DNA from: Saprospiraceae bacterium
GTDB taxonomy: Bacteria; Bacteroidota; Bacteroidia; Chitinophagales; Saprospiraceae
Reading direction: 5' to 3'
NCBI GenBank assembly: GCA_027488935.1
Contig: JAIYAP010000044.1
Location: 62,001 to 126,000, forward strand
Length of the DNA stretch: 64,000 bases
Both the position numbers and the translations under genes were made by a program. Below, piece by piece: positions 30,796-45,595 of the stretch; position 1 is the stretch's first letter; each line of letters begins with the position of its first letter. Under the pieces are notes generated by a model that ran no database searches, was not told where the DNA came from, and saw only the letters and a program-made list of their open reading frames with translations.

Positions 30796-30833
30796 AACAG
30801 ATTTGTAAAAAAAGTTTGAACATTTTTTAGCCA

Positions 30834-30849
30834 TGTTACCTGCGTAACA
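30834..30849. promoter_or_regulatory. Palindromic operator 1, TGTTAC-CTGC-GTAACA
   Basis: A perfect inverted repeat of 6-bp arms with a 4-bp spacer, upstream of the GH63-like gene. The same arms recur at 36367-36382 and 41529-41544. The outer TGT-N10-ACA geometry matches Crp/Fnr-family operators. Its centre (30841.5) is 36.5 bp upstream of the last G of the -7 element at 30871-30878. Inferred binding site of the Crp/Fnr-family regulator encoded at 40834-41514. Confidence 0.75.
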
Positions 30850-30870
30850 CCTTGGGCGGATTGTATCCCG

Positions 30871-30878
30871 GATCTTTG
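30871..30878 (+). promoter_or_regulatory. -7 element (GATCTTTG) of transcription unit 1
   Basis: Matches TAnnTTTG except for the first base. It sits 28 bases before the ATG of the glucosidase gene and at a fixed distance from operator 1. The weak first base is compatible with activator dependence. Confidence 0.55.
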
Positions 30879-30906
30879 CTGCGTTATTAAGAAAAACAAG
30901 GCAAAA

Positions 30907-33543
30907 ATGAAACAATCCGAACAGTTCCGCTTGCAGGAACATTATTCCGCACAAAAAAACTGGCTTAAATGGGGCCCTTACCTTTCCGAACGCCAATGGG
31001 GAACTGTCCGCGAGGATTATTCACCCAACGGAACCGCCTGGGACTACTTTCCGCATGATCATGCGCGCTCACGGGTGTACCGCTGGGGCGAAGACGGCAT
31101 TGCGGGTATTTCGGATGAAATGCAACGGATTTGTTTTGCAATTGCGCTTTGGAATGGGAAAGATCCAATTCTGAAAGAACGCCTGTATGGCATGACCGGT
31201 AGCGAAGGAAATCACGGGGAAGACGTAAAAGAATTGTATTATTATTTAGACAATACGCCTTCGCATGCGTACATGAAACATTTGTATAAGTATCCACAGC
31301 AGGCGTTTCCTTATGCCGACTTGCAGGAACAAAACCGGTGGCGCGACCGCAATCAAGCGGAATTTGAATTGTTGGACACTGGAATTTTTGCAAACAACCA
31401 ATATTGGGACGTATTTACAGAATATGCAAAAGGTTCGGAGGACGATCTGTTGATTCAGATTACCGTACACAATCGGTTTTCAGAAAGTGCTGAGTTGCAT
31501 CTTTTACCTACGCTCTGGATGCGCAATGCCTGGTCTTTTGGCCTGATGGATGAAAAACCTGAAATCCGCAGTGCCGGTAAAAACGAAGTGTTGCTTCAAC
31601 ATGAAAAAGCAGGCCAATACCATTTTTACTTTCAAGATCCTGCGCTTCAATTATTTACAGAAAATGAAAACAACCAGGAACGGCTTTGGGGTCAGCCGAA
31701 TCCGACGCCTTTTGTGAAGGATGCCTTTCACAGAGCGGTGGTACAAGGGCAGTTTGAATTTTTAGCAGACAAAACCAGTGGGACCAAATTTGCGCCCATG
31801 TACAAAGTGCAAGTAGCGGGCGGCGAAAAGGCTGTTTTTCAATTGCGTTTATCCAAAAATGCCGTGAAAACCCCATTCGGAAAGGGATTTGACCAGATTT
31901 TTGAAGATCGCAAACTCGAAGCAGACCAGTTTTACCAGCAAATTGTAGCAGAAGCCGGGCCGTCCGGTAAAATTTCAGCAGATCGTCAAAACATCCAACG
32001 CCAGGCCTACGCGGGTATGTTATGGTCGAAACAGTATTTTAACATTGACATGCCTCGTTGGCTGGATGGCGATCCGGGGCAAATTCCGCCGCCGGAAAGC
32101 CGGAAAAAAGGCCGCAACATGCATTGGCGCACCCTCAACAACGAGGATATTATTTCTATGCCCGATAAATGGGAATATCCCTGGTATGCGGCTTGGGACC
32201 TTGCTTTTCATTGTGTGCCTTTGGCGCAGTTGGATGCCGAATTTGCTAAAAGTCAGTTGGTGCTTTTTTTAAGGGAATGGTATATGCACCCAAATGGCCA
32301 ATTACCTGCTTACGAATGGGCATTTGGAGACGTAAATCCTCCTGTGCATGCCTGGGCTTGTTTGCAGGTTTATCAGATCGATAAAGCGAAAACGGGTAAA
32401 GAAGACATTGATTTTCTGAAAAAAGTATTTCAAAAACTGTTGATCAACTTTACCTGGTGGGTCAATCGAAAGGATCAGCAGGGCAACAATGTTTTTGAAG
32501 GTGGCTTTTTGGGTCTGGATAATATTGGGGTGTTTGACCGTTCCAACCAAATTCCGGGCGGTGGCTACCTGGAGCAAGCCGATGGTACTGCCTGGATGGC
32601 CATGTATTGCCTCAATATGTTGGAAATGGCGCTGGAAATTGCCCAACATGATGCCAGTTTTGAAGATGTTGCGACCAAGTTTTTTGAGCACTTTACTTAT
32701 ATTGCTGAAAGTCTGAACCGAATCGGCCACGATTGGACGAGTTCTTGGGATAAGGATGAATCTTTCTTTTATGATATCCTTGCCCTGCCCGATGGATCCT
32801 ACATTCCCTTGAAAGTGCGGTCGTTGGTGGGTTTGAGTACCTTATTTGCAGCTTATGTTTTGCCCAAAGAAAAACTGGCAAAATTGCCTGATTTCACAAA
32901 ACGCATGCGTTGGTTTCAGCGATACCGGACAGACAACGGACAATACCTGGTGTTGGAAGAAGATGCTGAAAATGGCAATATCCTGTTGTCTTTGATCCCA
33001 AAAGAGCGGTTGAGTTCCTTGTTAGATGCAATGTTGGATGAAAATGAATTCTTGTCGCCCGGCGGCATTCGATCCATTTCAAAAATCCATAAAGATGGGT
33101 ATTACGTCAACATTGACGGAACACAATTTGGATTACAATACGAGCCAGGTGAAAGTACAACAGGTTTATTTGGGGGCAACTCCAATTGGCGCGGTCCGGT
33201 GTGGATGCCCATGAACTATCTGTTGATCAGGGCCTTAGGTACTTATGGCACCTTTTATGGCGCAGGTTATATGACCGAATTTCCAGCGAAATCGGGAAAT
33301 CAAATTGATTTAAACCAGGTTGCGGATGCTTTATCCAAACGGTTGATTTCAATTTTTGAGAAAGACGAACACGGGCATCGAGCCGTAAATGGCGATGAAA
33401 AGATATATACTGAAAACCCTCATTTTCAGGATCTTATCTTGTTTTACGAGTATTTTCACGGCGATACGGCAAAAGGAATTGGTGCGAGTCATCAAACAGG
33501 TTGGACAGGTCTGGTAGCCGATTTAATCGGTAAGGCGGTGTAA
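30907..33543 (+). CDS. GH63/MGH1-like glucosidase, cytoplasmic
   Basis: An 878-residue glycoside hydrolase of the bacterial MGH1-like/GH63 type. The N-terminal half starts with the family pattern KWGPYLSERQWGTVREDYS. The C-terminal (alpha/alpha)6-type half contains WDLAFHCVPLA with candidate acid D431, FLREWYMHPNGQLPAYEWAF and GPVWMPMNYLLIRAL. No signal peptide is present, so it should act on an intracellular alpha-glucoside or oligosaccharide; the exact substrate cannot be read from sequence. First gene of unit 1, behind operator 1; 28 bp separate it from the debranching-type enzyme. Confidence 0.85.
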   Translation: MKQSEQFRLQEHYSAQKNWLKWGPYLSERQWGTVREDYSPNGTAWDYFPHDHARSRVYRWGEDGIAGISDEMQRICFAIALWNGKDPILKERLYGMTGSEGNHGEDVKELYYYLDNTPSHAYMKHLYKYPQQAFPYADLQEQNRWRDRNQAEFELLDTGIFANNQYWDVFTEYAKGSEDDLLIQITVHNRFSESAELHLLPTLWMRNAWSFGLMDEKPEIRSAGKNEVLLQHEKAGQYHFYFQDPALQLFTENENNQERLWGQPNPTPFVKDAFHRAVVQGQFEFLADKTSGTKFAPMYKVQVAGGEKAVFQLRLSKNAVKTPFGKGFDQIFEDRKLEADQFYQQIVAEAGPSGKISADRQNIQRQAYAGMLWSKQYFNIDMPRWLDGDPGQIPPPESRKKGRNMHWRTLNNEDIISMPDKWEYPWYAAWDLAFHCVPLAQLDAEFAKSQLVLFLREWYMHPNGQLPAYEWAFGDVNPPVHAWACLQVYQIDKAKTGKEDIDFLKKVFQKLLINFTWWVNRKDQQGNNVFEGGFLGLDNIGVFDRSNQIPGGGYLEQADGTAWMAMYCLNMLEMALEIAQHDASFEDVATKFFEHFTYIAESLNRIGHDWTSSWDKDESFFYDILALPDGSYIPLKVRSLVGLSTLFAAYVLPKEKLAKLPDFTKRMRWFQRYRTDNGQYLVLEEDAENGNILLSLIPKERLSSLLDAMLDENEFLSPGGIRSISKIHKDGYYVNIDGTQFGLQYEPGESTTGLFGGNSNWRGPVWMPMNYLLIRALGTYGTFYGAGYMTEFPAKSGNQIDLNQVADALSKRLISIFEKDEHGHRAVNGDEKIYTENPHFQDLILFYEYFHGDTAKGIGASHQTGWTGLVADLIGKAV

Positions 33544-33571
33544 ATTATTTTTAAAATTTCAACAACAAATC

Positions 33572-35593
33572 ATGTTAAAGTATAAAGATAAGGATCCTGA
33601 CTTCCAGGATCTTAGCTCCAAAGAATGGCTTGTTACCAACGGTCTGGGCGGGTATGCTGCCTCCACAGTATTGGGTGCCAATACGCGTCGTTACCATGGA
33701 TTATTGGTGGCAGCGCTCAATCCACCAACCGGACGTACGGTACTAGTGTCCAAAATAGAAGAATCCATTGTATTTAACCGCGACAGTTCCTTCGCGTTAT
33801 CGAGCAATCAATATCCGGGCACAATTCATCCGGATGGGTTTCAATATTTTAAGTTTTTTGAAAGGAAACCGCTTCCTGTAGTAAAATTTGAGGCACATGG
33901 TTGTCATTTGCTCAAAACCGTTTTTATGGTGCATGGCTCCAATACCACCGTTGTAGAATACGAAAATACGGGTGTTTCCAATTTCAAGTTGCGCTTAACG
34001 CCCATTTTTGTACACCGAGACGATCATGGCTTAAACCACCCCGATGCGAAATCGGATTATTGGGTAAAACGGGAAAATGGATATCAGACCATGTATGCCC
34101 ATTTCGGGGCACCACCACTGTACTTTTCCTTTACAAAAGGAGAATACCTGGAAAATCGGCAATGGTATTATAACTTAGAATATATTAGAGAGCAGGAACG
34201 TGGACTGGATTATCGGGAAGATGCTTGTTCGGTGGCTTCTTTGGAAGTGATTCTTGCGCCAGGCGAAAAGACACATCTTATTTTTTCGACAGATGAAAAA
34301 ATGATGAAGGAAGATCCGACGGTGTTGAAAACCAATACCCTAAACCGGCTGGAGTCACTAACCCAGCAGGCGGATGACAATGCGTTTTTGCGCGACTTAT
34401 TGCTTTCGGGCGATCAGTTTATCGTTCAACGCAAGAGCACTGAAGGTTATTCGTTGATTGCGGGTTATCATTGGTTTACCGATTGGGGACGGGATACCAT
34501 GATCGCGATGCGTGGGCTTACCATTGCTACGGGAAAACAGGAAATCTCAAAATCCATATTAGAGACCTTTTTGCGTTCCGTAAATGAAGGCATGCTTCCT
34601 AACCGTTTTCCTGATCGTCCGAACGACCCAATTGAATACAATACCATCGATGCAACTTTGTGGCTTTTTGTCGCGCTGTACGAGTATCATCAAAAGTTTC
34701 AGGATCTTGATTTTGTACAGCAGTATTTTGATGTTTTAACGGAAATTTTGAACCAGCATGTAGAAGGTGCCCGTTTTCAGATCAAAGTAAATTCGGAGGG
34801 CTTTTTATCGGGTGGTGAAGGACTTTCCCAGCTGACCTGGATGGATGCACGGGTAGGTGATTTTGTGGTAACACCCCGGCATGGCGCTCCGGTAGAAATA
34901 CAGGCACTTTGGTACAACGCATTGCGCATTTACCAATATTTTGCGGGCACTTTACAGCAGCCATTTGAGCAGTTTCAGGCAATTGCGGATAAATTGCTCC
35001 TCAACTTCGAGCGGAATTATGTTCAGGGAAATGGCAGTTTGGCGGATGTAGTTGATTTCAGCACAGTCCCCCCTAAAAAAGATGTTTCCATTCGCCCGAA
35101 CCAATTGTATGTGGTGAGTTTGCCTTTTTCATTGTTGGGAAAAGATGCGGAAAAGAAAGTAGTATCCATTGTGAAGGCACATTTGTTGACCGATTTTGGT
35201 TTGCGCACCCTTTCACCCGAACATGCCGATTTCAAACCCGTGTATGAAGGGGATCCCTGGCACCGGGATACGGCCTATCATCAGGGTACGGTATGGCCGT
35301 TTTTGTTGAGTGAGTACATAACAGCCTATTTAAAAGTGCAAAATTGGTCTGAAAAGGCACAAAAAGAGGCACTTGCCATGTTAGAGCCGTTGAAAAAGCA
35401 TTTTTACCAAGATCAATGTATCTTAGGTGTTTCAGAGGTTTTTGATGGGAAATTGCCGCGTGCGGGAAAAGGAACCGTGCAACAAGCCTGGTCGGTGGCT
35501 GCACTGATCAAAGTATTGCTAGACTTAAAAAAGTTGCAAGGAAAGAAGTCCACCTCCATTCCATTTTCAGTTAAAAAATCGCCTTTTCAATAA
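33572..35593 (+). CDS. Amylo-alpha-1,6-glucosidase family (glycogen-debranching type) protein
   Basis: A 673-residue protein with the N-terminal beta-rich domain typical of bacterial debranching-type enzymes (EWLVTNGLGGYAASTVLGANTRRYHGLLVA) and a C-terminal (alpha/alpha)6 barrel with WFTDWGRDTMIAM (R307, D308), YNTIDATLWL and LTWMDARVG carrying the probable catalytic acids. No signal peptide, so cytoplasmic. It probably hydrolyses alpha-1,6 branches of glycogen or related glucans (GH133-like). Co-transcribed with the glucosidase upstream and, 5 bp downstream, the aquaporin. Confidence 0.88.
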   Translation: MLKYKDKDPDFQDLSSKEWLVTNGLGGYAASTVLGANTRRYHGLLVAALNPPTGRTVLVSKIEESIVFNRDSSFALSSNQYPGTIHPDGFQYFKFFERKPLPVVKFEAHGCHLLKTVFMVHGSNTTVVEYENTGVSNFKLRLTPIFVHRDDHGLNHPDAKSDYWVKRENGYQTMYAHFGAPPLYFSFTKGEYLENRQWYYNLEYIREQERGLDYREDACSVASLEVILAPGEKTHLIFSTDEKMMKEDPTVLKTNTLNRLESLTQQADDNAFLRDLLLSGDQFIVQRKSTEGYSLIAGYHWFTDWGRDTMIAMRGLTIATGKQEISKSILETFLRSVNEGMLPNRFPDRPNDPIEYNTIDATLWLFVALYEYHQKFQDLDFVQQYFDVLTEILNQHVEGARFQIKVNSEGFLSGGEGLSQLTWMDARVGDFVVTPRHGAPVEIQALWYNALRIYQYFAGTLQQPFEQFQAIADKLLLNFERNYVQGNGSLADVVDFSTVPPKKDVSIRPNQLYVVSLPFSLLGKDAEKKVVSIVKAHLLTDFGLRTLSPEHADFKPVYEGDPWHRDTAYHQGTVWPFLLSEYITAYLKVQNWSEKAQKEALAMLEPLKKHFYQDQCILGVSEVFDGKLPRAGKGTVQQAWSVAALIKVLLDLKKLQGKKSTSIPFSVKKSPFQ

Positions 35594-35598
35594 GCTCG

Positions 35599-36351
35599 AT
35601 GATGTTTGAAACTTTTAAACAAAACTGGGCTAAATATGCCATAGAAGCCTGGGCCTTGGGCATGTTTATGTTATCGGCTTCTTTTTTCGTAGCAATGATT
35701 GAGCTGCCTGGACTTCCAATTCGTGAAAATATTGCAGATCCGATGTTGCGCCGATGGCTAATCGGGATCATGATGGGGTGTACCGCAATTACGTTGATTT
35801 ATTCGCCCTGGGGCATGCGCTCGGGTGCGCACATGAATCCAGCGGTAACCCTTGCTTTTTTGTTTTTGAAGAAAATTGCGCCCTGGGATGCGGTTGGGTA
35901 TATCATTGCACAAACGACAGGTGCTGTTGTAGCAATGCTTGCAGCCAAAAGTATTTTTCCAATGATATTAAGTGATCCGGCGGTCAATTATGTGCAAACA
36001 TTGCCTGGTATGAATGGCGTATTGGTCGCTTTTGGTGCCGAATATTTCCTCGCAATGGGCATGATTCTCTTGGTGTTATACAGCAGTAATACGACCCGCA
36101 CAGCACCTTATACCGGAATTTTTGCAGGCATAACCGTGATGGTTTATATTACGTTGGAGGCGCCGCTTTCCGGTATGTCGATCAATCCGGCCCGTACCCT
36201 GGCGTCGGCCGTTGCTGCGCATAATTTTGCATTTTATTGGATCTATTTGATCGCCCCTCCAGCAGGAATGTTGAGTGCTGCCATGCTTTGGCGGTGGTAT
36301 CTCTGTCAAAAATCGGAGTTTGCTTGCAGTATGTCGGGCAAAGAAAATTAA
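35599..36351 (+). CDS. MIP-family channel (aquaporin / glycerol facilitator)
   Basis: A 250-residue, six-helix channel with both half-helix motifs intact: N80-P81-A82 in HMNPAVTL and N196-P197-A198-R199 in SINPARTL, the Arg belonging to the selectivity filter. Whether it prefers water or small polyols cannot be decided by eye. Placement 5 bp after a glucan-degrading enzyme suggests a role in osmotic balance or polyol movement during glucan breakdown. ATGATG gives two possible starts one codon apart. Confidence 0.92.
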   Translation: MMFETFKQNWAKYAIEAWALGMFMLSASFFVAMIELPGLPIRENIADPMLRRWLIGIMMGCTAITLIYSPWGMRSGAHMNPAVTLAFLFLKKIAPWDAVGYIIAQTTGAVVAMLAAKSIFPMILSDPAVNYVQTLPGMNGVLVAFGAEYFLAMGMILLVLYSSNTTRTAPYTGIFAGITVMVYITLEAPLSGMSINPARTLASAVAAHNFAFYWIYLIAPPAGMLSAAMLWRWYLCQKSEFACSMSGKEN

Positions 36352-36366
36352 TGATATTTGGCCCAA

Positions 36367-36382
36367 TGTTACCTGGGTAAAC
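36367..36382. promoter_or_regulatory. Palindromic operator 2, TGTTAC-CTGG-GTAAAC
   Basis: Second copy of the palindrome; the left arm is identical to site 1 and the right arm differs at two positions (GTAAAC in place of GTAACA). Its centre (36374.5) is 36.5 bp upstream of the last G of the -7 element at 36404-36411, exactly as at the other two sites. It precedes the unit that ends with the Crp-type regulator gene, so autoregulation is likely. Confidence 0.72.
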
Positions 36383-36403
36383 TTTCAACGTTCGGGTGCG
36401 CCC

Positions 36404-36411
36404 TATTTTTG
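36404..36411 (+). promoter_or_regulatory. -7 element (TATTTTTG) of transcription unit 2
   Basis: Full match to TAnnTTTG, 43 bases before the SDR start codon. No -33 TTTG at the usual spacing, where the operator is found instead. Confidence 0.6.
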
Positions 36412-36454
36412 TGCTTATAAAAAGGAACTCATTCATTTTCAACACAATCGATCC

Positions 36455-37153
36455 ATGAAATCTATCATTGTTACGGGCGCTGCGGGTAATCTTGGCCAGG
36501 CTGTTGTACGCCGTTTTGCCGAAGACGGCCACAAAATTTATGCAGTCTTGGGCCTGGGTGAAAACTCCCGACATTTTAGTGAATCTGCCATGGCGGCAAG
36601 CATTCACACCCAATTTTTAAACCTTGCAGATGCAACCGTATCAGAAGGTTATGTGAAAAACATCATTGCCCTTGATCCAAATGTAGAGACTGCAATTTGT
36701 ATTGTTGGCGGCTGGCAACCAGGCGGGATTGCGGAAACGACCGGCTACGAAATTGACAAAATGATCAGCCTCAACTTTACAACTGCTTATAACATTGTTC
36801 GTCCTTTGATGGAATACTTTGAGCGAAGGGGCAGTGGTCAATTTGTATTTATTGGTGCGCGTCCGGCTATAAATCCGTCGGAAGGCAAAAGCCAATTGGC
36901 CTACGCTTTATCCAAATCGCTGGTGTTTCGTTTGGCCGAAATTATCAACGATCAGGGTAAATTCAAAAATATTCGGGCGAGTGTTATCATTCCATCTTTA
37001 CTCGATACACCGCAGAATCGCAATGCCTTTCCAGACGCGTCGGCTGAAGAATGGGTAACGCCAGATGTCGCCGCCGAAACAATTGCCTTCCTTTTAGGCG
37101 CAACTGGGGAGAACTTTCGCGAAACTGTTGTAAAATTGTACAATCAATCCTAA
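36455..37153 (+). CDS. Short-chain dehydrogenase/reductase
   Basis: A 232-residue classical SDR. The Rossmann glycine motif is at the N-terminus (VTGAAGNLGQAVV) and the catalytic pair lies in the YALSK pentad after the SQLA segment. The substrate is unknown. I start at the ATG at 36455, where the SDR fold begins; the frame is open for 60 codons upstream, but that part would run through the operator and -7 element. First gene of unit 2. Confidence 0.88.
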   Translation: MKSIIVTGAAGNLGQAVVRRFAEDGHKIYAVLGLGENSRHFSESAMAASIHTQFLNLADATVSEGYVKNIIALDPNVETAICIVGGWQPGGIAETTGYEIDKMISLNFTTAYNIVRPLMEYFERRGSGQFVFIGARPAINPSEGKSQLAYALSKSLVFRLAEIINDQGKFKNIRASVIIPSLLDTPQNRNAFPDASAEEWVTPDVAAETIAFLLGATGENFRETVVKLYNQS

Positions 37154-37179
37154 GTGATTGAAATTCAACATTATTTAAA

Positions 37180-37407
37180 ATGGAACTGGCAACTTTACTC
37201 GTAACGTTATTCTACCTTTATGGTATCATCGGGTGTGTTTTTGCTACCTGGTTTGTATTGCGTGGCGTCGAACAATTAGACCACGTTGCAAAAGGGATCT
37301 CCTGGATTACAAAGCTCTTGTTTTTTCCGGGAAGTGCGGCTTTATGGCCGGTTTTAGCCTGGAAATTGATGTATACACGCCCTGAAAACCCTGCAAACAA
37401 ACACTAA
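37180..37407 (+). CDS. Small two-helix membrane protein of unknown function
   Basis: A 75-residue protein with two hydrophobic segments (about 5-27 and 40-63) and a charged loop (RGVEQLDHVAKG) between them, ending in a polar tail. I do not recognise the family. It is followed one base later by a 36-residue membrane peptide and then by the ferric-reductase/Rieske gene, so it may be a small subunit of that membrane redox complex (inference from position). Confidence 0.75.
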   Translation: MELATLLVTLFYLYGIIGCVFATWFVLRGVEQLDHVAKGISWITKLLFFPGSAALWPVLAWKLMYTRPENPANKH

Positions 37408-37408
37408 G

Positions 37409-37519
37409 ATGACGATAAAATTGCGCAAAATTCATCGGTATATCTGGTATTTCCTGGCCATTTTGCTTCCAATTGCCTGGTTTGCGGCAATATGGGTGCT
37501 ACCAGATACAGTCTGGTAG
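37409..37519 (+). CDS. 36-residue single-helix membrane peptide
   Basis: A very short ORF starting one base after the preceding stop (TAAGATG) and ending at TAG at 37517-37519. The product has a basic N-terminus (MTIKLRKIHRY) and one hydrophobic helix (IWYFLAILLPIAWFAAIWVL) ending in aromatic and acidic residues. Tight spacing on both sides, the positive-inside charge pattern and lack of any competing frame argue that it is real. It resembles the tiny single-helix subunits that accompany membrane redox enzymes; no family can be named. Confidence 0.65.
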   Translation: MTIKLRKIHRYIWYFLAILLPIAWFAAIWVLPDTVW

Positions 37520-37554
37520 TCAAAACTTCAAACACACTGAAAACTACTTAAGCG

Positions 37555-38622
37555 ATGGCTCTTTCTTATGACCCTGTCCACTGGACACCGCATAAACGTT
37601 TGTATGATCGAATACTGATTGCGTTTATCGGGGTTTATTTGTTGTGCTTTATTGGATTACAATCTATTTTCCATCCTGACTGTACCCTCGAAACCACGGT
37701 AATTCGGGCTACGGGCACTTTGGGGTTTTTCATGTTGCACCTTATTCTCATCATTGGCCCTTTGTGTCGATTGGATCGGCGGTTTTTACCTTTATTGTAC
37801 AACCGACGGCATTTTGGGGTGGCGATGTTTTTGGTCGCCTTGTCCCATGGGGTGTTTAATTTATTCCAGTTTCATGCGATGGGGAATGTGGATCCGATGG
37901 TATCCTTGTTTACTTCCAACACACAGTATGGTTCATTGGCACGTTTTCCTTTCCAGGCGTTGGGCTTTTTTGCTTTACTGATCCTGTTTTTGATGGCCGC
38001 CACCAGCCACGATTTTTGGATGAAGAATTTGGGACCGCGTGTATGGAAATCCCTGCACATGGGGGTCTATTTTGCCTATGCCTTGTTGGTGATGCATGTG
38101 ATGTTGGGCGTTATTCAATTAGAGAAATCGCCCGTATTGATTGGAATGGTTGGGTTGGGCATGTTTGTGGTGATTGGTCTTCATGTTGCTGCCGCAATCA
38201 AGCAAAGTAAAATAGATGCTGCATCGGAACGTAATATTGCGATAGAGGCCGGACAGGCCGTACCGGAAGGTTTTGTATATGCCTGCGAATGGGCTGAAAT
38301 TGCCAATAACAAAGCTAAAATGCTCTTGATTGGCAAGGAAAACATCGCATTATTCCGCTATGAAGATAAAATTTCGGCCGTGCATAATGTGTGCAAACAT
38401 CAAAATGGTCCGCTCAGTGAAGGGCGTATTATTGATGGCTGTATCACTTGTCCCTGGCATGGCTATCAATATTTGCCAGAAAACGGGCAATCACCGCCAC
38501 CTTTTACCGAAAAACTTTCAACTTATGATGTTTTTGTAAAGGGAACAAGTGTTTATGTACATCCAAGCCCCTATCCGGAAGGTACCCAACGGATTCCAGC
38601 GGAAATTTCAATGGTATCCTAA
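37555..38622 (+). CDS. Ferric-reductase-like membrane cytochrome fused to a Rieske domain
   Basis: A 355-residue fusion. The first about 220 residues are a six-helix ferric-reductase/MsrQ-like domain with candidate haem-ligand histidines in MLHLILI, LSHGVFN and LHMGVYFAYALLVMH. The last about 120 residues are a Rieske [2Fe-2S] domain with C280-x-H282 (CKH) and C299-x2-H302 (CPWH) in the order required for cluster binding. Electrons could pass between haem and the Rieske cluster within one chain; direction and partner are unknown. It lies between small membrane peptides and a Cys-motif protein, so it is likely the core of a membrane electron-transfer module. Confidence 0.85.
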   Translation: MALSYDPVHWTPHKRLYDRILIAFIGVYLLCFIGLQSIFHPDCTLETTVIRATGTLGFFMLHLILIIGPLCRLDRRFLPLLYNRRHFGVAMFLVALSHGVFNLFQFHAMGNVDPMVSLFTSNTQYGSLARFPFQALGFFALLILFLMAATSHDFWMKNLGPRVWKSLHMGVYFAYALLVMHVMLGVIQLEKSPVLIGMVGLGMFVVIGLHVAAAIKQSKIDAASERNIAIEAGQAVPEGFVYACEWAEIANNKAKMLLIGKENIALFRYEDKISAVHNVCKHQNGPLSEGRIIDGCITCPWHGYQYLPENGQSPPPFTEKLSTYDVFVKGTSVYVHPSPYPEGTQRIPAEISMVS

Positions 38623-38633
38623 ACAGCACAAAC

Positions 38634-39434
38634 ATGCAGGAAGAAGAATTTTACATTGGTTGGCTGGCGAAAGCGCCGCCATCTTTTGCCCGTCGGACCC
38701 GACAGTTTATCCTGGTTAGTGTTTTGTCGCTACCGCTGGTAATCGGCTGCCTGGTATATTTCCAACAAGGATTTTCTAATGGTGTTTTTGAATATGGAAA
38801 GCAAACCAGCCTAATTGGTAAGTTTAGCCCAACGCCAGCACCTTTTTTAATTTTGGAATCAGCCAATCAAACCAATGGCCGCTTGACTCCCCAGTCGATC
38901 TTATTGGTAGGGGTAGGGAAGCACGGTTATTTTGCAGATCCGAAGGAAATTCCTGCAGGAAGTAAGGTACGTGTGGATGGCTTTTTGATTTACAGAGAAG
39001 GAAAGGTCGCTTTGCAGGTTAAAAGTATAGCCGTTTTAGAAAAGGACAGTTCGGTAAATTACACGCCGTTCGCTTCAGTATTAAACGCAGCGCCAATTCG
39101 GTTGCAAGGCGAAATAACCGACCCTAAATGCTTTCTGGGCGTCATGAATCCGGGGGAAGGAAAACCGCACCAGGATTGTGCCGTGCGGTGTTTAGCAGGG
39201 GGCATTCCGCCGCTTTTGAAAGTCCACGATGGGGATGGGAAAGATGCTTATTACCTGTTGTTTGGGCCAAATGGCGCACCCCTTTTCCCGCAAATACAGC
39301 AATATGTAGGCAGTGGCATTGGTTTGTGTGGGCGCATACAAACCTTTGATAATTGGCAAATGCTGTATGTGGACACTACTTCGATTCAACGAATCAATAA
39401 ATATGCACTCGACGCTGGTCCGATGTGTCATTAA
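38634..39434 (+). CDS. Membrane-anchored protein with DPKC...HxxCAxxC motif, unknown function
   Basis: A 266-residue protein with one N-terminal helix (about 27-47), an OB-like beta domain (about 50-150) and a C-terminal domain with a striking motif: D-P-K-C166, then H179, C182 and C186 in HQDCAVRC followed by LAGGIPPLL. Further cysteines are in IGLCGR and the terminal PMCH. The fixed C/H/C/C spacing looks like a metal- or cofactor-binding site. I recall similar motifs in uncharacterised bacterial proteins but cannot give a family name. It starts 11 bp after the Rieske fusion gene, so a shared redox role is likely. Confidence 0.78.
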   Translation: MQEEEFYIGWLAKAPPSFARRTRQFILVSVLSLPLVIGCLVYFQQGFSNGVFEYGKQTSLIGKFSPTPAPFLILESANQTNGRLTPQSILLVGVGKHGYFADPKEIPAGSKVRVDGFLIYREGKVALQVKSIAVLEKDSSVNYTPFASVLNAAPIRLQGEITDPKCFLGVMNPGEGKPHQDCAVRCLAGGIPPLLKVHDGDGKDAYYLLFGPNGAPLFPQIQQYVGSGIGLCGRIQTFDNWQMLYVDTTSIQRINKYALDAGPMCH

Positions 39435-39443
39435 CCAAAACCG

Positions 39444-40799
39444 ATGCAACTGATCAAATTTCAAATCCATTCTTTGCCGATCAACACCCCGAAAGACGCG
39501 GTCTTTTACCTGGCAGGCAATTTCAATCAATGGGCACCCAAGGATCCGAATTTTTGTTTTGAAATGCAGGACAGTGGCGTGTACGAATTGAATTTCGAAA
39601 CCGACCTGACCCAGTTGGAATGCAAATTGACACGGGGGGAGTGGTCGACCGCGGAAGGTGATAATTATGGTCGCACGATCTCCAACCGTATTTTTCATGT
39701 GGTACAGGAAAATAGCTTGTATGTACAGGTAAATTCCTGGGTCGATATGCCTCCCAAACACCCGGCAGGCATTGTAAGGCTGTTGCACCCAAACATGTGG
39801 ATGCCCCAATTGGAGAGAAACCGCCGTATTTGGGTCTGTTTTCCACCCGATTATTGGATGAATACGAAAAAACGGTATCCGGTGGTGTACATGCAGGATG
39901 GTCAAAACCTGTTCAATAATCCAGATGCCGTTTTTGGCTCCTGGGATATTGATAAAGCCATGCACCAATTGTTTTTAAAAAATACGGGCAACCACCTACC
40001 GTCGCCAATTCTGATAGGCATTGAAAATGGTGGAGTGCACCGCATCGACGAATATGCACCTTGGGTAAATCCTGAACATGGCGGCGGGGAAGCTGCGGCT
40101 TATCTTGATTTTATTTGCACCACCCTTAAACCTTTTGTCGACCAGCAATTACGCACACAACCGGAACAGGCGCAAACCGGTATAATGGGCAGCAGCATGG
40201 GCGGCTTGTTTTCCTTGTATGCCATTTTAGAAAAACCAGCCGTATTTGGCATGGCAGGTGTTTTTTCGCCTGCTTTATGGTTTTCAGAAAACCTTTTTGA
40301 TTGGGTGAAAACCCGCAAACCCAGCCACCCCGTAAAAATTCTCCTGATGGCGGGCCAACAGGAAAGTGAAGAAATGGTCAGTCAACTACTTGATTTATAT
40401 GAAGTTCTGTTGGAGGCTGGCTACGATGAAGATTTGATGCACTATGATTTACACTCCGATGGCACCCATTCAGAGCATTTTTGGGCCCGTGAATTTGAAC
40501 ATGCACTTGCCTGGTTGCTGGGTGGAATGCCCGGCCATTCGCACGGTATTTCAGATGAAATGATTCAATTTGGCTTAGATGCCGGTAAAAAAGAATTGCT
40601 GATCAAAATTGCACCGCGTTTACAACATGCCCAATTGGAAGTACGCGATTACTGCCACAATCGCCAGTTTAAGCATGATTTGGGGCAAATTGATAACCGC
40701 GTTCCGTACGCCGACTGGGAAGAATGTATTTTTTCAATCCGTATGGTGTTGGGAACCGACCTGGTTTTTTCCCGGCGCGTACCATTAAATCAAGTGTAA
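39444..40799 (+). CDS. Putative esterase with N-terminal glycan-binding-like E-set domain
   Basis: A 451-residue protein. Residues 1-105 resemble a CBM20/CBM48-type starch-binding fold (YLAGNFNQWAPKD). Residues 115-355 are an alpha/beta-hydrolase of the Esterase_D type with the nucleophile S251 in the elbow GSSMGG, a preceding VVYMQDGQNLF loop and a likely catalytic His in DGTHSEHFW. The last about 95 residues are unassigned. No signal peptide, so cytoplasmic. It could deacylate a modified sugar or glucan; the substrate is unknown. Between the Cys-motif protein (9 bp) and the crp-type gene (34 bp). Confidence 0.82.
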   Translation: MQLIKFQIHSLPINTPKDAVFYLAGNFNQWAPKDPNFCFEMQDSGVYELNFETDLTQLECKLTRGEWSTAEGDNYGRTISNRIFHVVQENSLYVQVNSWVDMPPKHPAGIVRLLHPNMWMPQLERNRRIWVCFPPDYWMNTKKRYPVVYMQDGQNLFNNPDAVFGSWDIDKAMHQLFLKNTGNHLPSPILIGIENGGVHRIDEYAPWVNPEHGGGEAAAYLDFICTTLKPFVDQQLRTQPEQAQTGIMGSSMGGLFSLYAILEKPAVFGMAGVFSPALWFSENLFDWVKTRKPSHPVKILLMAGQQESEEMVSQLLDLYEVLLEAGYDEDLMHYDLHSDGTHSEHFWAREFEHALAWLLGGMPGHSHGISDEMIQFGLDAGKKELLIKIAPRLQHAQLEVRDYCHNRQFKHDLGQIDNRVPYADWEECIFSIRMVLGTDLVFSRRVPLNQV

Positions 40800-40833
40800 A
40801 AACGATTACTCAACCGATTTTAATAAACGCGTT

Positions 40834-41514
40834 ATGCATCAGAAAAGCGTCTGGTTTTTTGAAGAGGTCGATTTGTACGAAATGCTGTGTCCGTACAAAT
40901 ATAAAGATCACTTAAAAACCCATCCCCTGAGTTGTTACAACAAAACAGATTTCCTGTTTATGGAAGGTGACCCCGTCCGCGATATTTTTTTAGTGGCAGA
41001 GGGTAAAGTAAAGGTCAGTTTTTATGATAACGATGGCAACGAGCAGGTCATTGCCTTTTTATCCAAAGGTGAGATTTTGGGTGAAACAGCCCTCATTGGA
41101 CAAGCCCGCTATCGTGAATTTGCACAAGCGGTGGTTGACCGTACGATGATTTGTAAATTAGGCGTGGATAAGGCCAGGGAATTGATGCGCGATTATGTGC
41201 CCTTTTCGCTCACAATTACCAAACGTTTTGGCGAGAAAACCCAACGTCTTGAGCGCCGATTGCAAATTCTACTCTTTAAAGATGCGCGTCAACGCCTGGT
41301 AGCGTTTATCAAAGACCTTTGTAGGGACATAGGAACAGTACACGCAAGTGGTACAAAAGTTGAATTAGATATCACCCAAAGTGATATTGCAGCCCTGATT
41401 GGAGCCTCCCGCAAAACAGTTTCGCTTTTATTTACCGATCTGGAAATGGAAGGTCAAGTACGTTTTAGTGGCCGAAAAGAGCTGTTTGTTTCCAATCTAG
41501 ACCAATTAGTTTGA
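40834..41514 (+). CDS. Crp/Fnr-family transcription regulator
   Basis: A 226-residue regulator with an N-terminal cyclic-nucleotide-binding-type beta-roll (about 25-145, including LFMEGDPVRDIFLVAEGKVK and GEILGETALIG), a dimer helix and a C-terminal winged helix-turn-helix (ITQSDIAALIGASRKTVSLL, from about 180). In the recognition helix S192-R193-K194-T195-V196 replaces the S-R-E-T-V of E. coli CRP. Four cysteines are scattered and do not form an FNR-type cluster motif. Last gene of unit 2, whose promoter carries operator 2. It is the best candidate to bind all three palindromes. The effector is unknown. Confidence 0.93.
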   Translation: MHQKSVWFFEEVDLYEMLCPYKYKDHLKTHPLSCYNKTDFLFMEGDPVRDIFLVAEGKVKVSFYDNDGNEQVIAFLSKGEILGETALIGQARYREFAQAVVDRTMICKLGVDKARELMRDYVPFSLTITKRFGEKTQRLERRLQILLFKDARQRLVAFIKDLCRDIGTVHASGTKVELDITQSDIAALIGASRKTVSLLFTDLEMEGQVRFSGRKELFVSNLDQLV

Positions 41515-41528
41515 ATTAATTTTGCAGA

Positions 41529-41544
41529 TGTTACCCCTGTAACA
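41529..41544. promoter_or_regulatory. Palindromic operator 3, TGTTAC-CCCT-GTAACA
   Basis: Third copy, with both arms perfect and a different spacer. Its centre (41536.5) is again 36.5 bp upstream of the last G of the -7 element at 41566-41573. It lies between the regulator gene and the GMC oxidoreductase gene. Confidence 0.75.
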
Positions 41545-41565
41545 TTTGCTTGAAGCCATGTCCTG

Positions 41566-41573
41566 CACCTTTG
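41566..41573 (+). promoter_or_regulatory. -7 element (CACCTTTG) of transcription unit 3
   Basis: Matches TAnnTTTG except for the first base; 28 bases before the GMC gene start, the same leader length as unit 1. A TTTG at 41545-41548 could serve as -33 element with a 17-base spacing. Confidence 0.55.
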
Positions 41574-41601
41574 TCCTATCATTTGAAAAAGACAAAGCAG
41601 C

Positions 41602-43140
41602 ATGCAACAATTTGATTTTATCATTATCGGAACGGGCGCAGGGGGAGGAACCTTGGCCCACCAATTGGCGCCAAGCGGCAAGCGGATTTTAATACTTGAA
41701 CGCGGCGATTTTTTACCCAAAGAAAAAGAAAACTGGGATCCAATGGCTGTGGCGCAAGGACGGTACAAGACCACAGAACTTTGGCGCGACCGCGATCAAA
41801 ATTTATTTTCACCCTATCAGCATTATTGGGTAGGCGGAAATACGAAAATGTACGGGGGCGCGCTCTTGCGCCTGCGGGAAAGGGATTTTGAAGCCAATAC
41901 CCATTTTGACGGTATTTCTCCTGCCTGGCCGCTCAAATATGCCGATTTTGCCCCTTGGTACGATCAAGCAGAAGCGCTTTATGCCGTACATGGTACCCGC
42001 GGACAGGACCCAACCGAGCCCCCAGCCGATAAAGCGTATCCTTTTCCAGCCTTGCCCTTTGAGCCACGCATGGAAACCTTGGCCGCACAAATCCGTCAGC
42101 AAGGATACCATCCAAGCGCTATTCCGCTCGCAATTCGATTGCCCGAAGATACCAATGGTAAGATTTCAGATCGGATTAATATGGAATTATATGATGGTTA
42201 CCCGGATCCGACCGGCGCAAAGGCCGATAGTCATGTAGTGGGCATTCAGGCGGCATTGCAATACCCCAATGTAACGCTGATGACCAATTGCAAGGCTTTG
42301 AAAATCAATACAGATGCTAGCGGTAAACGGGCTGAAAGTGTCATCGTAGCGCACAACGGCACAGAAGAAACCTATTTTGCGGACACGATTGTAGTTGCTT
42401 GTGGCGCTGTAAATTCGGCCGCTTTGTTGCTCAATTCTGCCAACGAACAACATCCACAAGGACTTGCGAACAGCAGCGGTCAAGTAGGTCGCAACCTGAT
42501 GGTGCACAACAACGGAATCGTATTGGCTTATTCGGCTACCCCGAATCCTTCCAAGTTTCAAAAAGCCATCCTGATTGCCGATTTTTACCACGGCGCTTCC
42601 GACAGCCCTTATCCGCTCGGATCCATTCAAAATATGGGTAAAGCCGATCCTTTGTTGCTAATTGACGCCGTTGGTGATGATTTGGAAACAGAAGGCCGCG
42701 ATATGGAACATTTTGCCGGCCATATTGTCGACTTCTTTATCACCGCCGAAGATTTACCCACGTCTGAAAATCGAGTATTGGTTAATGAAACAGGTGAAAT
42801 TCAAGTGCAGTATACCGCCAATAACCTGGAAGCGTACCAACGTTTGCATGCTAAATTGGTGCAAATCATGGATCAGGTAGCCATGGATGAAGGCGTAGGT
42901 GAAAGCACCAAATATTACGGTTTTAAACTTGGTTCCGGTGGTGTAAGTCATCAAAATGGCACTTGCCGATTTGGTACGGATCCAAAACAGTCGGTACTCG
43001 ACCTCAACTGTAAAGCCCATGATCTCAACAATTTATATGTGGTCGATACTTCATTTTTCCCTTCCTCGGGCGCAGTAAATCCATCACTTACCGCCATGGC
43101 CAATGCACTACGTGTTGGCGCACATCTGCTTGAACAATAA
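41602..43140 (+). CDS. GMC-family FAD-dependent oxidoreductase
   Basis: A 512-residue flavoprotein with the N-terminal FAD-binding motif IIGTGAGGGTLA (about 7-18), the GMC segment HYWVGGNTKMYGGALLR and a C-terminal GMC_oxred_C region with a candidate active-site His in GGVSHQNGTCRFG and the closing SGAVNPSLTAMANALR. GMC enzymes oxidise alcohols or sugars; the substrate here is unknown. No secretion signal is obvious. Forms unit 3 with the glucose-dehydrogenase-like SDR 28 bp downstream. Confidence 0.9.
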   Translation: MQQFDFIIIGTGAGGGTLAHQLAPSGKRILILERGDFLPKEKENWDPMAVAQGRYKTTELWRDRDQNLFSPYQHYWVGGNTKMYGGALLRLRERDFEANTHFDGISPAWPLKYADFAPWYDQAEALYAVHGTRGQDPTEPPADKAYPFPALPFEPRMETLAAQIRQQGYHPSAIPLAIRLPEDTNGKISDRINMELYDGYPDPTGAKADSHVVGIQAALQYPNVTLMTNCKALKINTDASGKRAESVIVAHNGTEETYFADTIVVACGAVNSAALLLNSANEQHPQGLANSSGQVGRNLMVHNNGIVLAYSATPNPSKFQKAILIADFYHGASDSPYPLGSIQNMGKADPLLLIDAVGDDLETEGRDMEHFAGHIVDFFITAEDLPTSENRVLVNETGEIQVQYTANNLEAYQRLHAKLVQIMDQVAMDEGVGESTKYYGFKLGSGGVSHQNGTCRFGTDPKQSVLDLNCKAHDLNNLYVVDTSFFPSSGAVNPSLTAMANALRVGAHLLEQ

Positions 43141-43168
43141 ATCATTGCATCTCTAAAATCTTAATAAA

Positions 43169-43984
43169 ATGTACCAGCAACCCAACAATCGCCTTAAAAA
43201 ACAAACCTGCATTATCACGGGTGCAAATTCGGGGATCGGACGCGCCATTGTTTATGCCATGGCCCGCGAAGGCGCCAATGTGGTGGTCAATTATGTTTTC
43301 GGCGACGAGGCGGCCCAACAAATTGTCGATGAAATTACCCATTTGGGTGGACATGCAATGGCCTATAAAGCCGATGTAAGTAAAGAAGATGAAGTAATTG
43401 CCATGTTTAAGGAAACGGTGGCTACTTTCGGAACGGTAGATATTTTAGTAAACAACGCCGGATTGCAGCGCGACGCCGCATTTCACGAAATGAGCCTTAA
43501 AGACTGGCAATTTGTATTGGATGTTAACCTGACCGGACAGTTCCTGTGCGCGCGCGAAGCAGTGCGTGAATTCTTGCGCCGTGGTCCGCGTCCCGACGTT
43601 TCAGTCGCTTTGGGCAAGATCATCTGCATGTCTTCTGTGCATGAAGTTATACCTTGGGGTGGTCATGTAAACTACGCCGCATCTAAAGGGGGCGTTATGC
43701 TGATGATGAAGTCGCTGGCGCAAGAATACGGCCCTATGAAAATACGGGTCAATTCCATCGGACCAGGCGCGATTAAAACCCCCATTAACCGCTCGGCCTG
43801 GGAAACACCGGAAGCGGAGCAAAAACTGTTGGAACTCATCCCTTATTCACGGGTGGGCGAAACCTCCGACATTGGTGCAGCGGCAGTTTGGCTGGCTTCC
43901 GATGAATCCGATTATATACACGGCACCACCATTTTTGTGGATGGGGGGATGACGCTTTATCCGGGCTTTACAGAAAACGGTTAA
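43169..43984 (+). CDS. SDR family oxidoreductase, glucose 1-dehydrogenase-like
   Basis: A 271-residue classical SDR. The cofactor motif TGANSGIG is near residue 15-22, NNAG follows in DILVNNAGLQ, and the catalytic Tyr/Lys are Y169 and K173 in NYAASKGG. The overall pattern is closest to glucose 1-dehydrogenases, and an aldose dehydrogenase function would fit the glucan-degrading neighbours, but the substrate is inference. Co-transcribed with the GMC enzyme and the DM13 lipoprotein. Confidence 0.9.
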   Translation: MYQQPNNRLKKQTCIITGANSGIGRAIVYAMAREGANVVVNYVFGDEAAQQIVDEITHLGGHAMAYKADVSKEDEVIAMFKETVATFGTVDILVNNAGLQRDAAFHEMSLKDWQFVLDVNLTGQFLCAREAVREFLRRGPRPDVSVALGKIICMSSVHEVIPWGGHVNYAASKGGVMLMMKSLAQEYGPMKIRVNSIGPGAIKTPINRSAWETPEAEQKLLELIPYSRVGETSDIGAAAVWLASDESDYIHGTTIFVDGGMTLYPGFTENG

Positions 43985-44002
43985 CAAACATAAACATTTA
44001 AG

Positions 44003-44731
44003 ATGAAAAAAATACTCCAATTATCGGCCCTGTTAGGTGTGTTATCGGTTTCGGCTTGCGTCGGAACCGATTACATCGACGATCCAATTGTGCCCGAAAG
44101 GTTATCTATTTTCCCACGCATCAACAATTTGCCCGCCTTTCAAGAGCAGGTTTTTTCGGTAAAATATACCGACCAATATGGTATTGAGGCGCCGCTGGAA
44201 GACATTGTCTGGAGCAGCAGCGCGCCCGAAAAAGTGTCGATTGATGTTAATGGGAAAGCAAAAACCATTGCGCCCGGTAAGGCTACCTTGTATGCCAGCA
44301 AAGGCAACTTACAAGACTCGATTGTGTTAAACCAATCCGGAGGCTCTGGCAATCCTGGTGCAAACGATACCACCTTTTTCAAAAAAGGGGTATTTATGAC
44401 GGTCAATACCCACTATTTTGCAAAAGGCGGGGTATATCTGCAGACGGTAAATGGCATAACCCAAGTCCGAACAGCAGCTGATTTTGGCACCAGCGCAGGA
44501 CCAAGCGTGTACGTTTTATTGACCAACCACCTCAACGGCAGTTATTCGGTTACGCCAGGTAGCAATGTCATCAATGGAAGCAGCGCCCAAATAACGGCCA
44601 ATAAACTGAGCGCATTTTCCGGGGTGCAAAGTTGGACGGTCCCGGGCAGTGTTAATCCGGCCAATTATAAATACGTGGTGCTTTATTGTGTTTTGGGTCC
44701 CGTTTTTGGCGCAGCCGAATTAAAACAATAA
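44003..44731 (+). CDS. Lipoprotein with Ig-like region and DM13 domain
   Basis: A 242-residue lipoprotein: signal with lipobox VSAC (Cys19), an Ig-like/BIG2-type region (about 30-110; SVKYTDQYGIEAPL, KAKTIAPGKATLYA), a Gly/Ser linker, then a C-terminal region (about 128-242) that fits the DM13 domain. The DM13 call rests on the closing pattern YKYVVLYCVLGPVFGAAELK, with the conserved Cys and the A-E-L ending. DM13 is proposed to take part in electron transfer, which would suit this redox-rich cluster. 9 bp before the beta-barrel gene, so the two may be partners at the outer membrane. Confidence 0.75.
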   Translation: MKKILQLSALLGVLSVSACVGTDYIDDPIVPERLSIFPRINNLPAFQEQVFSVKYTDQYGIEAPLEDIVWSSSAPEKVSIDVNGKAKTIAPGKATLYASKGNLQDSIVLNQSGGSGNPGANDTTFFKKGVFMTVNTHYFAKGGVYLQTVNGITQVRTAADFGTSAGPSVYVLLTNHLNGSYSVTPGSNVINGSSAQITANKLSAFSGVQSWTVPGSVNPANYKYVVLYCVLGPVFGAAELKQ

Positions 44732-44740
44732 AAATCTTAT

Positions 44741-45595
44741 ATGAAAAAGATTGTTCAACATGCTTTTCGCTTGTTGCTGGTGATTTGTTTGCTCCCAGGT
44801 ATAGCAAGCGCACAAGCCTGGACCAGAAGCAAAGGCAAAGGTTTTTACAAACTGGATTTTGCCCGCATTTATGCACGTAATATTTTTGATGAACGGGGTG
44901 ATGTAGCGCCATTTCGGACCCTTGGAAACTACACCAGCAGTTTTTACGGGGAATACGGTCTTTTAAACAAACTCACCATCACTGCAAACGTGCCATTTTA
45001 TGTGCGCAACGTGATCAACGAAACCAAAGGCAGGCAAACCGGCCAGGTAATCGAACAGGGCATTGTGAACAATAATTTTGGTGATGTTGACTTGGCACTG
45101 CGTTTTGCACTGCCCGTTAAACGATTTGCTTTAAGCACAACGGTGATGTTTGGGCTGCCCACTGGAGACGCCCGGCAAGTAGACGGACTTTTTACGGGCG
45201 ACGGCGAGTTCAATCAATTATTAAAAATAAGCGCCGGGAAGGGTGGCGCACGCTGGTGGGTACAAGGTTCACTTGGATTAAACAACAGGACGAAGGGCTT
45301 TTCCGATGAATTCCGTTATGAGTTTGAATACGGCTATAAATTTTTCAGGGATCATTTATTGGCCATTTTAAAGGTAAATGGCATTGAAAGCTTGCAAAAT
45401 GGGAATGTTGCATCGGCAGCAAACGGCTTGTTTTCCAACAATGTAGAATTTATGGGCATCGGACCGGAAGTGTTGTATTACCTGAATGCAAAAAAAACAT
45501 TTGGGGTGTCGGCACGTATCACAGGTGCTATAAAGGGTCAAAATGTACTGGCAGCGCCCTCAACGGCGATTGGGGTGTTTTTAGATTTTAAATAA
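44741..45595 (+). CDS. Outer-membrane beta-barrel protein
   Basis: A 284-residue protein with a signal peptide (1 to about 25, ending ASAQA) and alternating-strand sequence rich in Gly and aromatics, with typical barrel strands such as NKLTITANVPFYVR and FALSTTVMFGLPTG. It ends in aliphatic/aromatic FLDFK. It resembles transporter-like or MetA-pathway-type barrels but cannot be assigned. Last gene of unit 3, followed at once by a strong hairpin. Confidence 0.75.
   Translation: MKKIVQHAFRLLLVICLLPGIASAQAWTRSKGKGFYKLDFARIYARNIFDERGDVAPFRTLGNYTSSFYGEYGLLNKLTITANVPFYVRNVINETKGRQTGQVIEQGIVNNNFGDVDLALRFALPVKRFALSTTVMFGLPTGDARQVDGLFTGDGEFNQLLKISAGKGGARWWVQGSLGLNNRTKGFSDEFRYEFEYGYKFFRDHLLAILKVNGIESLQNGNVASAANGLFSNNVEFMGIGPEVLYYLNAKKTFGVSARITGAIKGQNVLAAPSTAIGVFLDFK

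Follow-up and report, generated by a model that had tools for sequence, protein, structure and literature searches.

Putative class II activator operators of a Crp/Fnr-family regulator in a Saprospiraceae genome

The window analyzed here, a stretch of 64,000 nucleotides from a Saprospiraceae bacterium (contig C83, positions 62001-126000, of a 6.28-Mb genome designated G000), contains three palindromes of the general form TGTTAC-N4-GTAACA, each just ahead of one of three gene units that run in the same direction. The second of these units ends with a gene (40834-41514) for a regulator of the Crp/Fnr type, which raises the question of what protein acts at the palindromes and whether it turns the units on or off. 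The answer that we favor, with a probability of about 0.85, is that they are class II activator operators of this same regulator, its own gene being among those that it would activate. The reading of a Crp-type class II regulon, first made from the sequence alone, thus appears mostly right.

Three palindromes and their -7 boxes

The palindromes and the promoter boxes with which they are paired are:

30834-30849, + strand: site 1, TGTTACCTGCGTAACA, an exact TGTTAC-N4-GTAACA with predicted centre at -41.5, identical in the nearest relative (G527)
30871-30878, + strand: -7 box of unit 1, GATCTTTG, with 25 bp from the end of the site to TTTG
36367-36382, + strand: site 2, TGTTACCTGGGTAAAC, with an imperfect right arm, GTAAAC
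36404-36411, + strand: -7 box of unit 2, TATTTTTG
41529-41544, + strand: site 3, TGTTACCCCTGTAACA, an exact TGTTAC-N4-GTAACA followed directly by TTTG at -33 to -30
41566-41573, + strand: -7 box of unit 3, CACCTTTG

In 3/3 cases a NAnnTTTG box follows, its last G (at 30878, 36411 and 41573) being 36.5 bp downstream of the palindrome centre, just as the sequence-only reading had it, with the palindromes at the sequences and coordinates that it gave. The TAnnTTTG box of Flavobacterium psychrophilum occupies -12 to -5 (PMC9723704), and class II Crp sites are centred at -41.5 (PMC5957442). With the last G at -5, the 36.5 bp put the palindrome centre at -41.5, where "near -41" had been estimated before, and the predicted transcription starts at 30883, 36416 and 41578. 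The palindromes are thus predicted operators of the three units at the class II position. The co-directional run of genes that they would serve, 30907-45595, has intergenic gaps of at most 35 nt with two exceptions, 103 nt between the aquaporin and SDR genes and 87 nt between the Crp and GMC genes; each of these, and the gap ahead of the run (30796-30906), holds one palindrome.

Spacers and flanks differ among the three sites, as had been noticed for the spacers. The accompanying statement that the arms are kept holds for sites 1 and 3, which are exact, while site 2 departs from it at 2/6 positions of its right arm. That arm is nevertheless conserved: both arms of site 2 are identical in G527 although just 10/20 positions of the spacer are, so that the imperfect arm is kept rather than decaying, and since it abuts the -33 region, its position there may explain the asymmetry. 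Over the three sites the arms agree with those of G527 at 12/12, 12/12 and 11/12 positions, and the five defining bases of the -7 box at 5/5 in each.

Chance accounts poorly for such an arrangement. Without regard to phase, 6 matches with at most 2 mismatches are found in the window as compared to a mean of 2.3 after shuffling, 6 being reached in 1/100 shuffles, a modest excess when taken alone. With the phase imposed, three sites occur in 0/400 windows simulated by a Markov-1 model (mean 0.03), and two exact palindromes likewise in 0/400. Chance frequency without phasing had been named as what would speak against the regulon; what is found is an excess and a fixed phase. Exact palindromes number three in the genome as a whole and 0 for a reversed control pattern; the third, at C36:75516, is unphased, lies within an open reading frame (ORF) of 996 aa and was treated as a chance occurrence. 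Two further phased sites, with 1 and 2 mismatches, are found on contig C22, so that the "exactly three" sites of the sequence-only reading is right for the window and too few for the genome.

The regulator and the distribution of its putative sites

The 40834-41514 protein, already taken for a Crp/Fnr product when only the letters were read, matches PF00027 (cNMP_binding, E 2.3e-17) and PF13545 (Crp-type helix-turn-helix, E 1.2e-11), and its structure as predicted from a 40-sequence alignment (pLDDT 81.9) has the Crp fold; by Pfam and this predicted fold it is a member of the Crp/Fnr superfamily. By reading, its recognition helix, S192-R193-K194-T-V-S-L198, corresponds to CRP positions 179-185. 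In the CRP half-site T1G2T3G4A5, Arg180 reads G2 while Arg185 and Glu181 read the G4:C4 pair (PMC11253593). Proteins of the type found here, which we call the Lys181 group, keep Arg180 (R193 in the window protein), have Lys for Glu181 and, as judged by eye, have Leu for Arg185 in 14/15 rows and Val in the remaining one (G100); in their sites T1G2T3 and A5 are unchanged, and position 4 is occupied by T or, rarely, by A. The replacement of TGTGA by TGTTA thus matches a change of the very two residues that read the altered base pair. A correlation of residues 180/181 with site specificity has been described for HcpR, DNR and NnrR (Rodionov 2005, PMC1274295). The same genome has a paralogue (C77:186825) that is 33% identical, with Gln181 and the helix SRQTVTT.

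The sites track the regulator. Among 42 genomes of the genus, 8 have an orthologue at E 1e-42 or better; an exact palindrome is present in 7/8 of these and in 3/34 of the others (Fisher 3e-5, uncorrected for relatedness). The phased core TGTTAC-N4-GTAA-N27-TTTG is found in 8/8 genomes with the orthologue (36 sites among 64 rows) and in 0/31 without it (of the 34, with G531, G532 and G533 left out). The association with orthologues of the regulator that had been suggested as a check is therefore present, and so is the conservation of the sites upstream of orthologous units. Further support comes from the A at -11 of NAnnTTTG, which lies outside the search pattern: it is present in 36/36 core sites of the 8 regulator-bearing genus genomes, in 11/22 of their non-core rows with TTTG intact, and in 27/67 TTTG-intact rows of genomes without the regulator. 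As the search did not ask for this base, its enrichment speaks independently for the phased TTTG as a promoter box. The unselected count to be used is 47/58 TTTG-intact rows (64 rows in all), rather than 54/54, which comes from loci picked after their sequence had been seen.

Nine genomes outside the genus, with homologues 38-55% identical, were also searched for sites. Lys is at CRP position 181 in 7/9 (G180, G091, G058, G008, G183, G100 and G333); the other two have Glu181 (G104) and Gln181 (G237), and the genome search for an exact palindrome in G237 gave none. Together with the 8 genus members, the window genome included, these make 15 Lys181 genomes from two families, with an exact palindrome in 14/15 and an exact phased site in 12/15. 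A branch with support 100/98 separates the Lys181 rows from the rest in a tree built from 32 proteins. When exact sites are collected regardless of phase, 17 of 28 distinct ones have TTTG at a spacing of 25, and no other spacing accounts for more than 3. Those of the unphased exact sites in Lys181 genomes that lie at loci L001, L117, L127, L128 and L065 are within ORFs of 385-1994 aa.

The form of the sites can be described from 52 aligned examples chosen by motif similarity and by hand, the motif columns being biased to that extent; these are the rows, among 67, that could be assigned by hand to target families, the other 15 having an imperfect TTTG, being reverse readings of a palindrome or lacking a clear target. 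There is hardly any variation in TGTTAC and the GTAA that follows it, whereas the final two bases differ from site to site (CA, AC, TC, CC, CG and others). At the fourth position of the half-site 49/52 have T and 3/52 have A, although these are sites found with a TGTTAC pattern and others may be bindable as well. The end variant is in part specific to the gene served: 5/6 SDR promoters have GTAAAC or GTAATC, 9/10 GMC promoters have the right arm GTAACA, and 7/8 promoters of the YHS group have GTAACC or GTAACG. TTTG at -33 to -30 is present at just 3/54 phased sites, window site 3 included, and T is the first base of the -7 box at 15/54.

The proposed mechanism, its rivals and known systems

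In the mechanism that we propose, a dimer of the Crp/Fnr-family protein would bind TGTTAC-N4-GTAA(CA or AC) at -41.5 of NAnnTTTG promoters, mostly ones without TTTG at -33, and activate them in class II fashion. It would drive the three units of the window and thereby, its own gene being the last of unit 2, its own expression (positive autoregulation). Elsewhere it would drive at least two units, those of the VOC/glyoxalase-like and YHS proteins on C22. We infer binding, activation rather than repression, the operon structure and autoregulation from sequence comparisons.

Several observations weigh against this proposal. In G000 itself, phased matches with up to 2 mismatches number 7 rows (the three window sites, the reverse reading of site 1, the two on C22, and C30:156676, which like some other 2-mismatch matches in regulator-bearing genomes was left out of examination) against 21 for the reversed pattern, and with up to 3 mismatches 84 against 188. 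The weak matches thus show no bulk enrichment, and the evidence lies in the strong core sites and what accompanies them. G522 lacks an exact palindrome, all of its phased sites having 1-2 mismatches; G100 and G183 have TTTA for the phased box; one unphased exact site (L040:7814) is outside any ORF of 100 aa; and in G425 the GMC gene is about 1.6 kb beyond the site. The Glu181 genome, G104, has one exact palindrome outside ORFs of 100 aa, with TTTA at the phase, which speaks against a strict link to Lys181. Site 3, with its TTTG at -33, may belong to a promoter with less need of an activator. Finally, the genomes are related, and the co-occurrence counts are therefore not independent.

An unlikely alternative, though the strongest of those considered, is that the regulator binds the sites but mainly represses, or does both, by blocking the -33 region. 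The site does span -49 to -34, right next to the -33 element, and site 3 has a TTTG at -33. The distance to the -7 box is constant, however, where more positions should be acceptable to a repressor, and the scarcity both of TTTG at -33 and of a T-first box fits promoters that need an activator. Even less probable is that the palindrome is the operator of some other protein associated with the cluster. Co-occurrence of sites and regulator is in part co-occurrence of the gene cluster, but G091 and G333 have exact phased sites although no other window gene was found within 10 kb of the regulator in the former or on the regulator's 8.2-kb contig in the latter; in G091 the phased sites nevertheless precede genes for MsrB, a YHS-cluster protein and MsrA (about 0.3 kb away). 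A gapped two-fold site at -41.5 is also the geometry of Crp/Fnr proteins, and the change in the site matches the change in the helix.

There is very little to recommend the paralogue at C77:186825 as the binding protein beyond its presence in the same genome. Crp homologues at E 1e-30 or better occur in 123/199 genomes of the family, mostly with 28-36% identity like the paralogue, whereas 31 genus genomes lack core sites (a set defined by absence of the Lys181 orthologue, not by presence of the paralogue). Least probable of all, to the point of being negligible, is that the palindromes arose by chance or that a promoter module was recently copied: the window has just three sites, but the 400 simulated windows contain no such set, spacers and flanks differ, and the same sites recur in other genera. 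Activation by the Lys181 regulator remains the best account of the whole.

Among known systems, E. coli CRP at class II promoters is similar in its fold, its two-fold operator at -41.5, its Arg180 and the TGT of its half-site. It differs in having TGTGA rather than TGTTA, in residues 181 and 185 (Lys and Leu here), and in the promoter, which here has the Bacteroidota -7 box. No Arg-Ser pair is visible in what should be the phosphate-binding loop, A-R-Y-R-E-F-A, nor an Arg-Thr pair, the register being uncertain (the alignment is without E. coli CRP and gapped against GlxR); most Lys181 proteins keep an Arg or Lys in that loop. The regulator scores below the cut-offs of the profiles for CRP (NF008732, 76.7 bits vs. 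266), FNR (NF008365, 64.6 vs. 228) and NtcA (TIGR03697, 70.9 vs. 244.95), and the sites at hand do not have the form TGTGA-N6-TCACA. NtcA sites read GTA-N8-TAC, unlike the half-site here, which reads TAC towards the centre.

HcpR2 is like the window regulator in being of a Crp/Fnr type found in Bacteroides, with an N4 spacer and a specificity tied to 180/181, but it combines GTAACnnnnGTTAC with Pro181 and the window regulator TGTTACnnnnGTAACA with Lys181 (PMC1274295). FNR and DNR belong to the same superfamily and share the N4 spacer, as in TTGATnnnnATCAA (PMC1274295), but have a different half-site. DdrI of Deinococcus, also of the Crp family, is reported to bind DNA without cAMP, but its site is TGTGA-N6-TCACA and its recognition helix retains RETV (PMC11253593). 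NikR was rejected: the half-site is common to both, but in GTGTTAC-N13/14-GTAACAC the gap is 13-14 bp (PMC545781). The identities HcpR2, FNR, NtcA and CRP were likewise rejected by motif, residue 181, cysteines or profile cut-offs. The predicted operator is different from those of CRP, FNR and HcpR2 where the recognition helix differs, and the earlier remark that the motif is neither an E. coli CRP nor an FNR site is borne out by the distinct TGTTA half-site.

The window regulator has cysteines at 19, 34, 107 and 163, of which just two are conserved, in contrast to FNR: C19 and C107, with W7, are invariant in 40 aligned homologues, where FNR-type proteins would have four conserved [4Fe-4S] cysteines, and two Lys181 proteins have only two Cys each. 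The arrangement of the cysteines is not that of FNR. C19 is in an LCP stretch in which the Pro is nearly invariant in the same homologues. The invariance of C19, C107 and W7 extends to paralogues with other recognition helices, which suggests a shared structural or sensing role. The signal is likely to be something other than cAMP; thiol or haem would be a guess.

Saprospiraceae homologues of Crp/Fnr have been treated as MalR-like (PMC8510549). A Crp-type site with this motif was not found in the literature searched, and may exist in closed literature, nor was a prior Crp-type activator geometry for the Bacteroidota -7 box found in the open-access papers searched. The primary sigma factor of the phylum uses this unusual box, and yet the geometry can be read off directly and is -41.5 as in E. 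coli. Here nature itself puts the Crp recognition code to the test, with residues 181 and 185 set against base 4 of the half-site, and the 15 genomes provide testable target lists, some of the targets being for repair of oxidized proteins.

Gene units, putative targets and related operators

The units of the window, as annotated from Pfam and other family profiles, are:

30907-36351, + strand: unit 1, three genes with gaps of 28 and 5 nt
30907-33543, + strand: GH63/MGH1-like glycoside hydrolase
33572-35593, + strand: glycogen debranching enzyme (GDE_N/GDE_C)
35599-36351, + strand: MIP aquaporin
36455-41514, + strand: unit 2, internal gaps of 1-35 nt
36455-37153, + strand: SDR
37180-37407 and 37409-37519, + strand: two small ORFs
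37555-38622, + strand: ferric reductase-like and Rieske protein
38634-39434, + strand: protein without Pfam match
39444-40799, + strand: esterase
40834-41514, + strand: Crp/Fnr regulator of 226 aa, last gene of unit 2
41602-45595, + strand: unit 3, gaps of 9-28 nt
41602-43140, + strand: GMC oxidoreductase
43169-43984, + strand: SDR/glucose-1-dehydrogenase-like protein
44003-44731 and 44741-45595, + strand: two further ORFs

The ferric reductase-like/Rieske protein has a weak similarity to MsrQ (40.9 bits vs. a cut-off of 130).

Across the genomes, the assigned phased sites precede genes for the GMC oxidoreductase (10, and 1 probable), the GH63-like hydrolase (8), the YHS/HbpS group (8), the SDR (6) and a second SDR (2), the protein without Pfam match (5, one of them placed by a near-identical promoter), a CotH-like protein (3, one tested by Pfam), MsrB (2) and MsrA (1, about 0.3 kb away), with one each for a VOC/glyoxalase-like protein, a Na+/H+ exchanger, a DoxX-like protein and a site with no target in hand; two sites of a subtilase have TTTA at the phase. 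YHS was confirmed by Pfam in the three members tested (G000, G414 and G522, the last fused to an HbpS-like domain), and the G091 member, which has no Pfam match, was placed by similarity. The description of the regulon as local does not stand, given the phased sites before YHS, MsrB, MsrA, antiporter and DoxX-like genes here or elsewhere. The names of the targets (repair of oxidized proteins, electrophiles, osmotic balance) suggest a stress regulon, with a role in protection from oxidative, electrophile and osmotic stress.

Some related operators are found outside the Lys181 genomes. A search of the phylum gave 8 genomes with Pro181 or Gln181 homologues, of which 5/8 have a phased match with 1 mismatch; these matches (position 1501 of loci L164, L166, L167, L169 and L170, all with Pro181 homologues) were not counted as support, and they include two pairs, L164 with L170 and L166 with L169, in each of which one place is matched in two related genomes. 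Some of the sites in Pro181 genomes precede DUF547- and MBL-fold/rhodanese-like genes, as named by reading. Hybrids of the form TGTGAC-N4-GTAACA are present at the same phase in G509, G510 and G442, all without the Lys181 regulator. An exact TGCTAC-N4-GTAGCA, spaced from TTTG in the same way, is present in 5/42 genus genomes, of which 3 lack the Lys181 regulator (position 1501 of loci L173, L174, L175, L176 and L177), and in 4/5 the next ORF encodes the same membrane-type protein of about 70 aa (DUF2892-like by reading); this is probably the operator of another Crp/Fnr regulon with the same geometry.

A wider view, possible but rather doubtful as yet, is that a lineage of Bacteroidota Crp/Fnr paralogues has kept the rigid -41.5 geometry while residue 181 (Lys, Gln or Pro) and the operator changed together, giving insulated regulons (TGTTAC; TGCTAC-N4-GTAGCA). 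The Lys181 regulon would then be one of redox, electrophile and methionine-sulfoxide repair functions, with Cys19 and Cys107 as candidate thiol or haem sensors in place of cAMP.

One database entry also bears on the cluster: contig JAKLJF010000048.1 (L005/L068), titled as a Thermoanaerobaculia metagenome-assembled genome, is the reverse complement of a contig of G522. Since it carries the same cluster as this member of the genus, the title looks wrong or the bin mixed.

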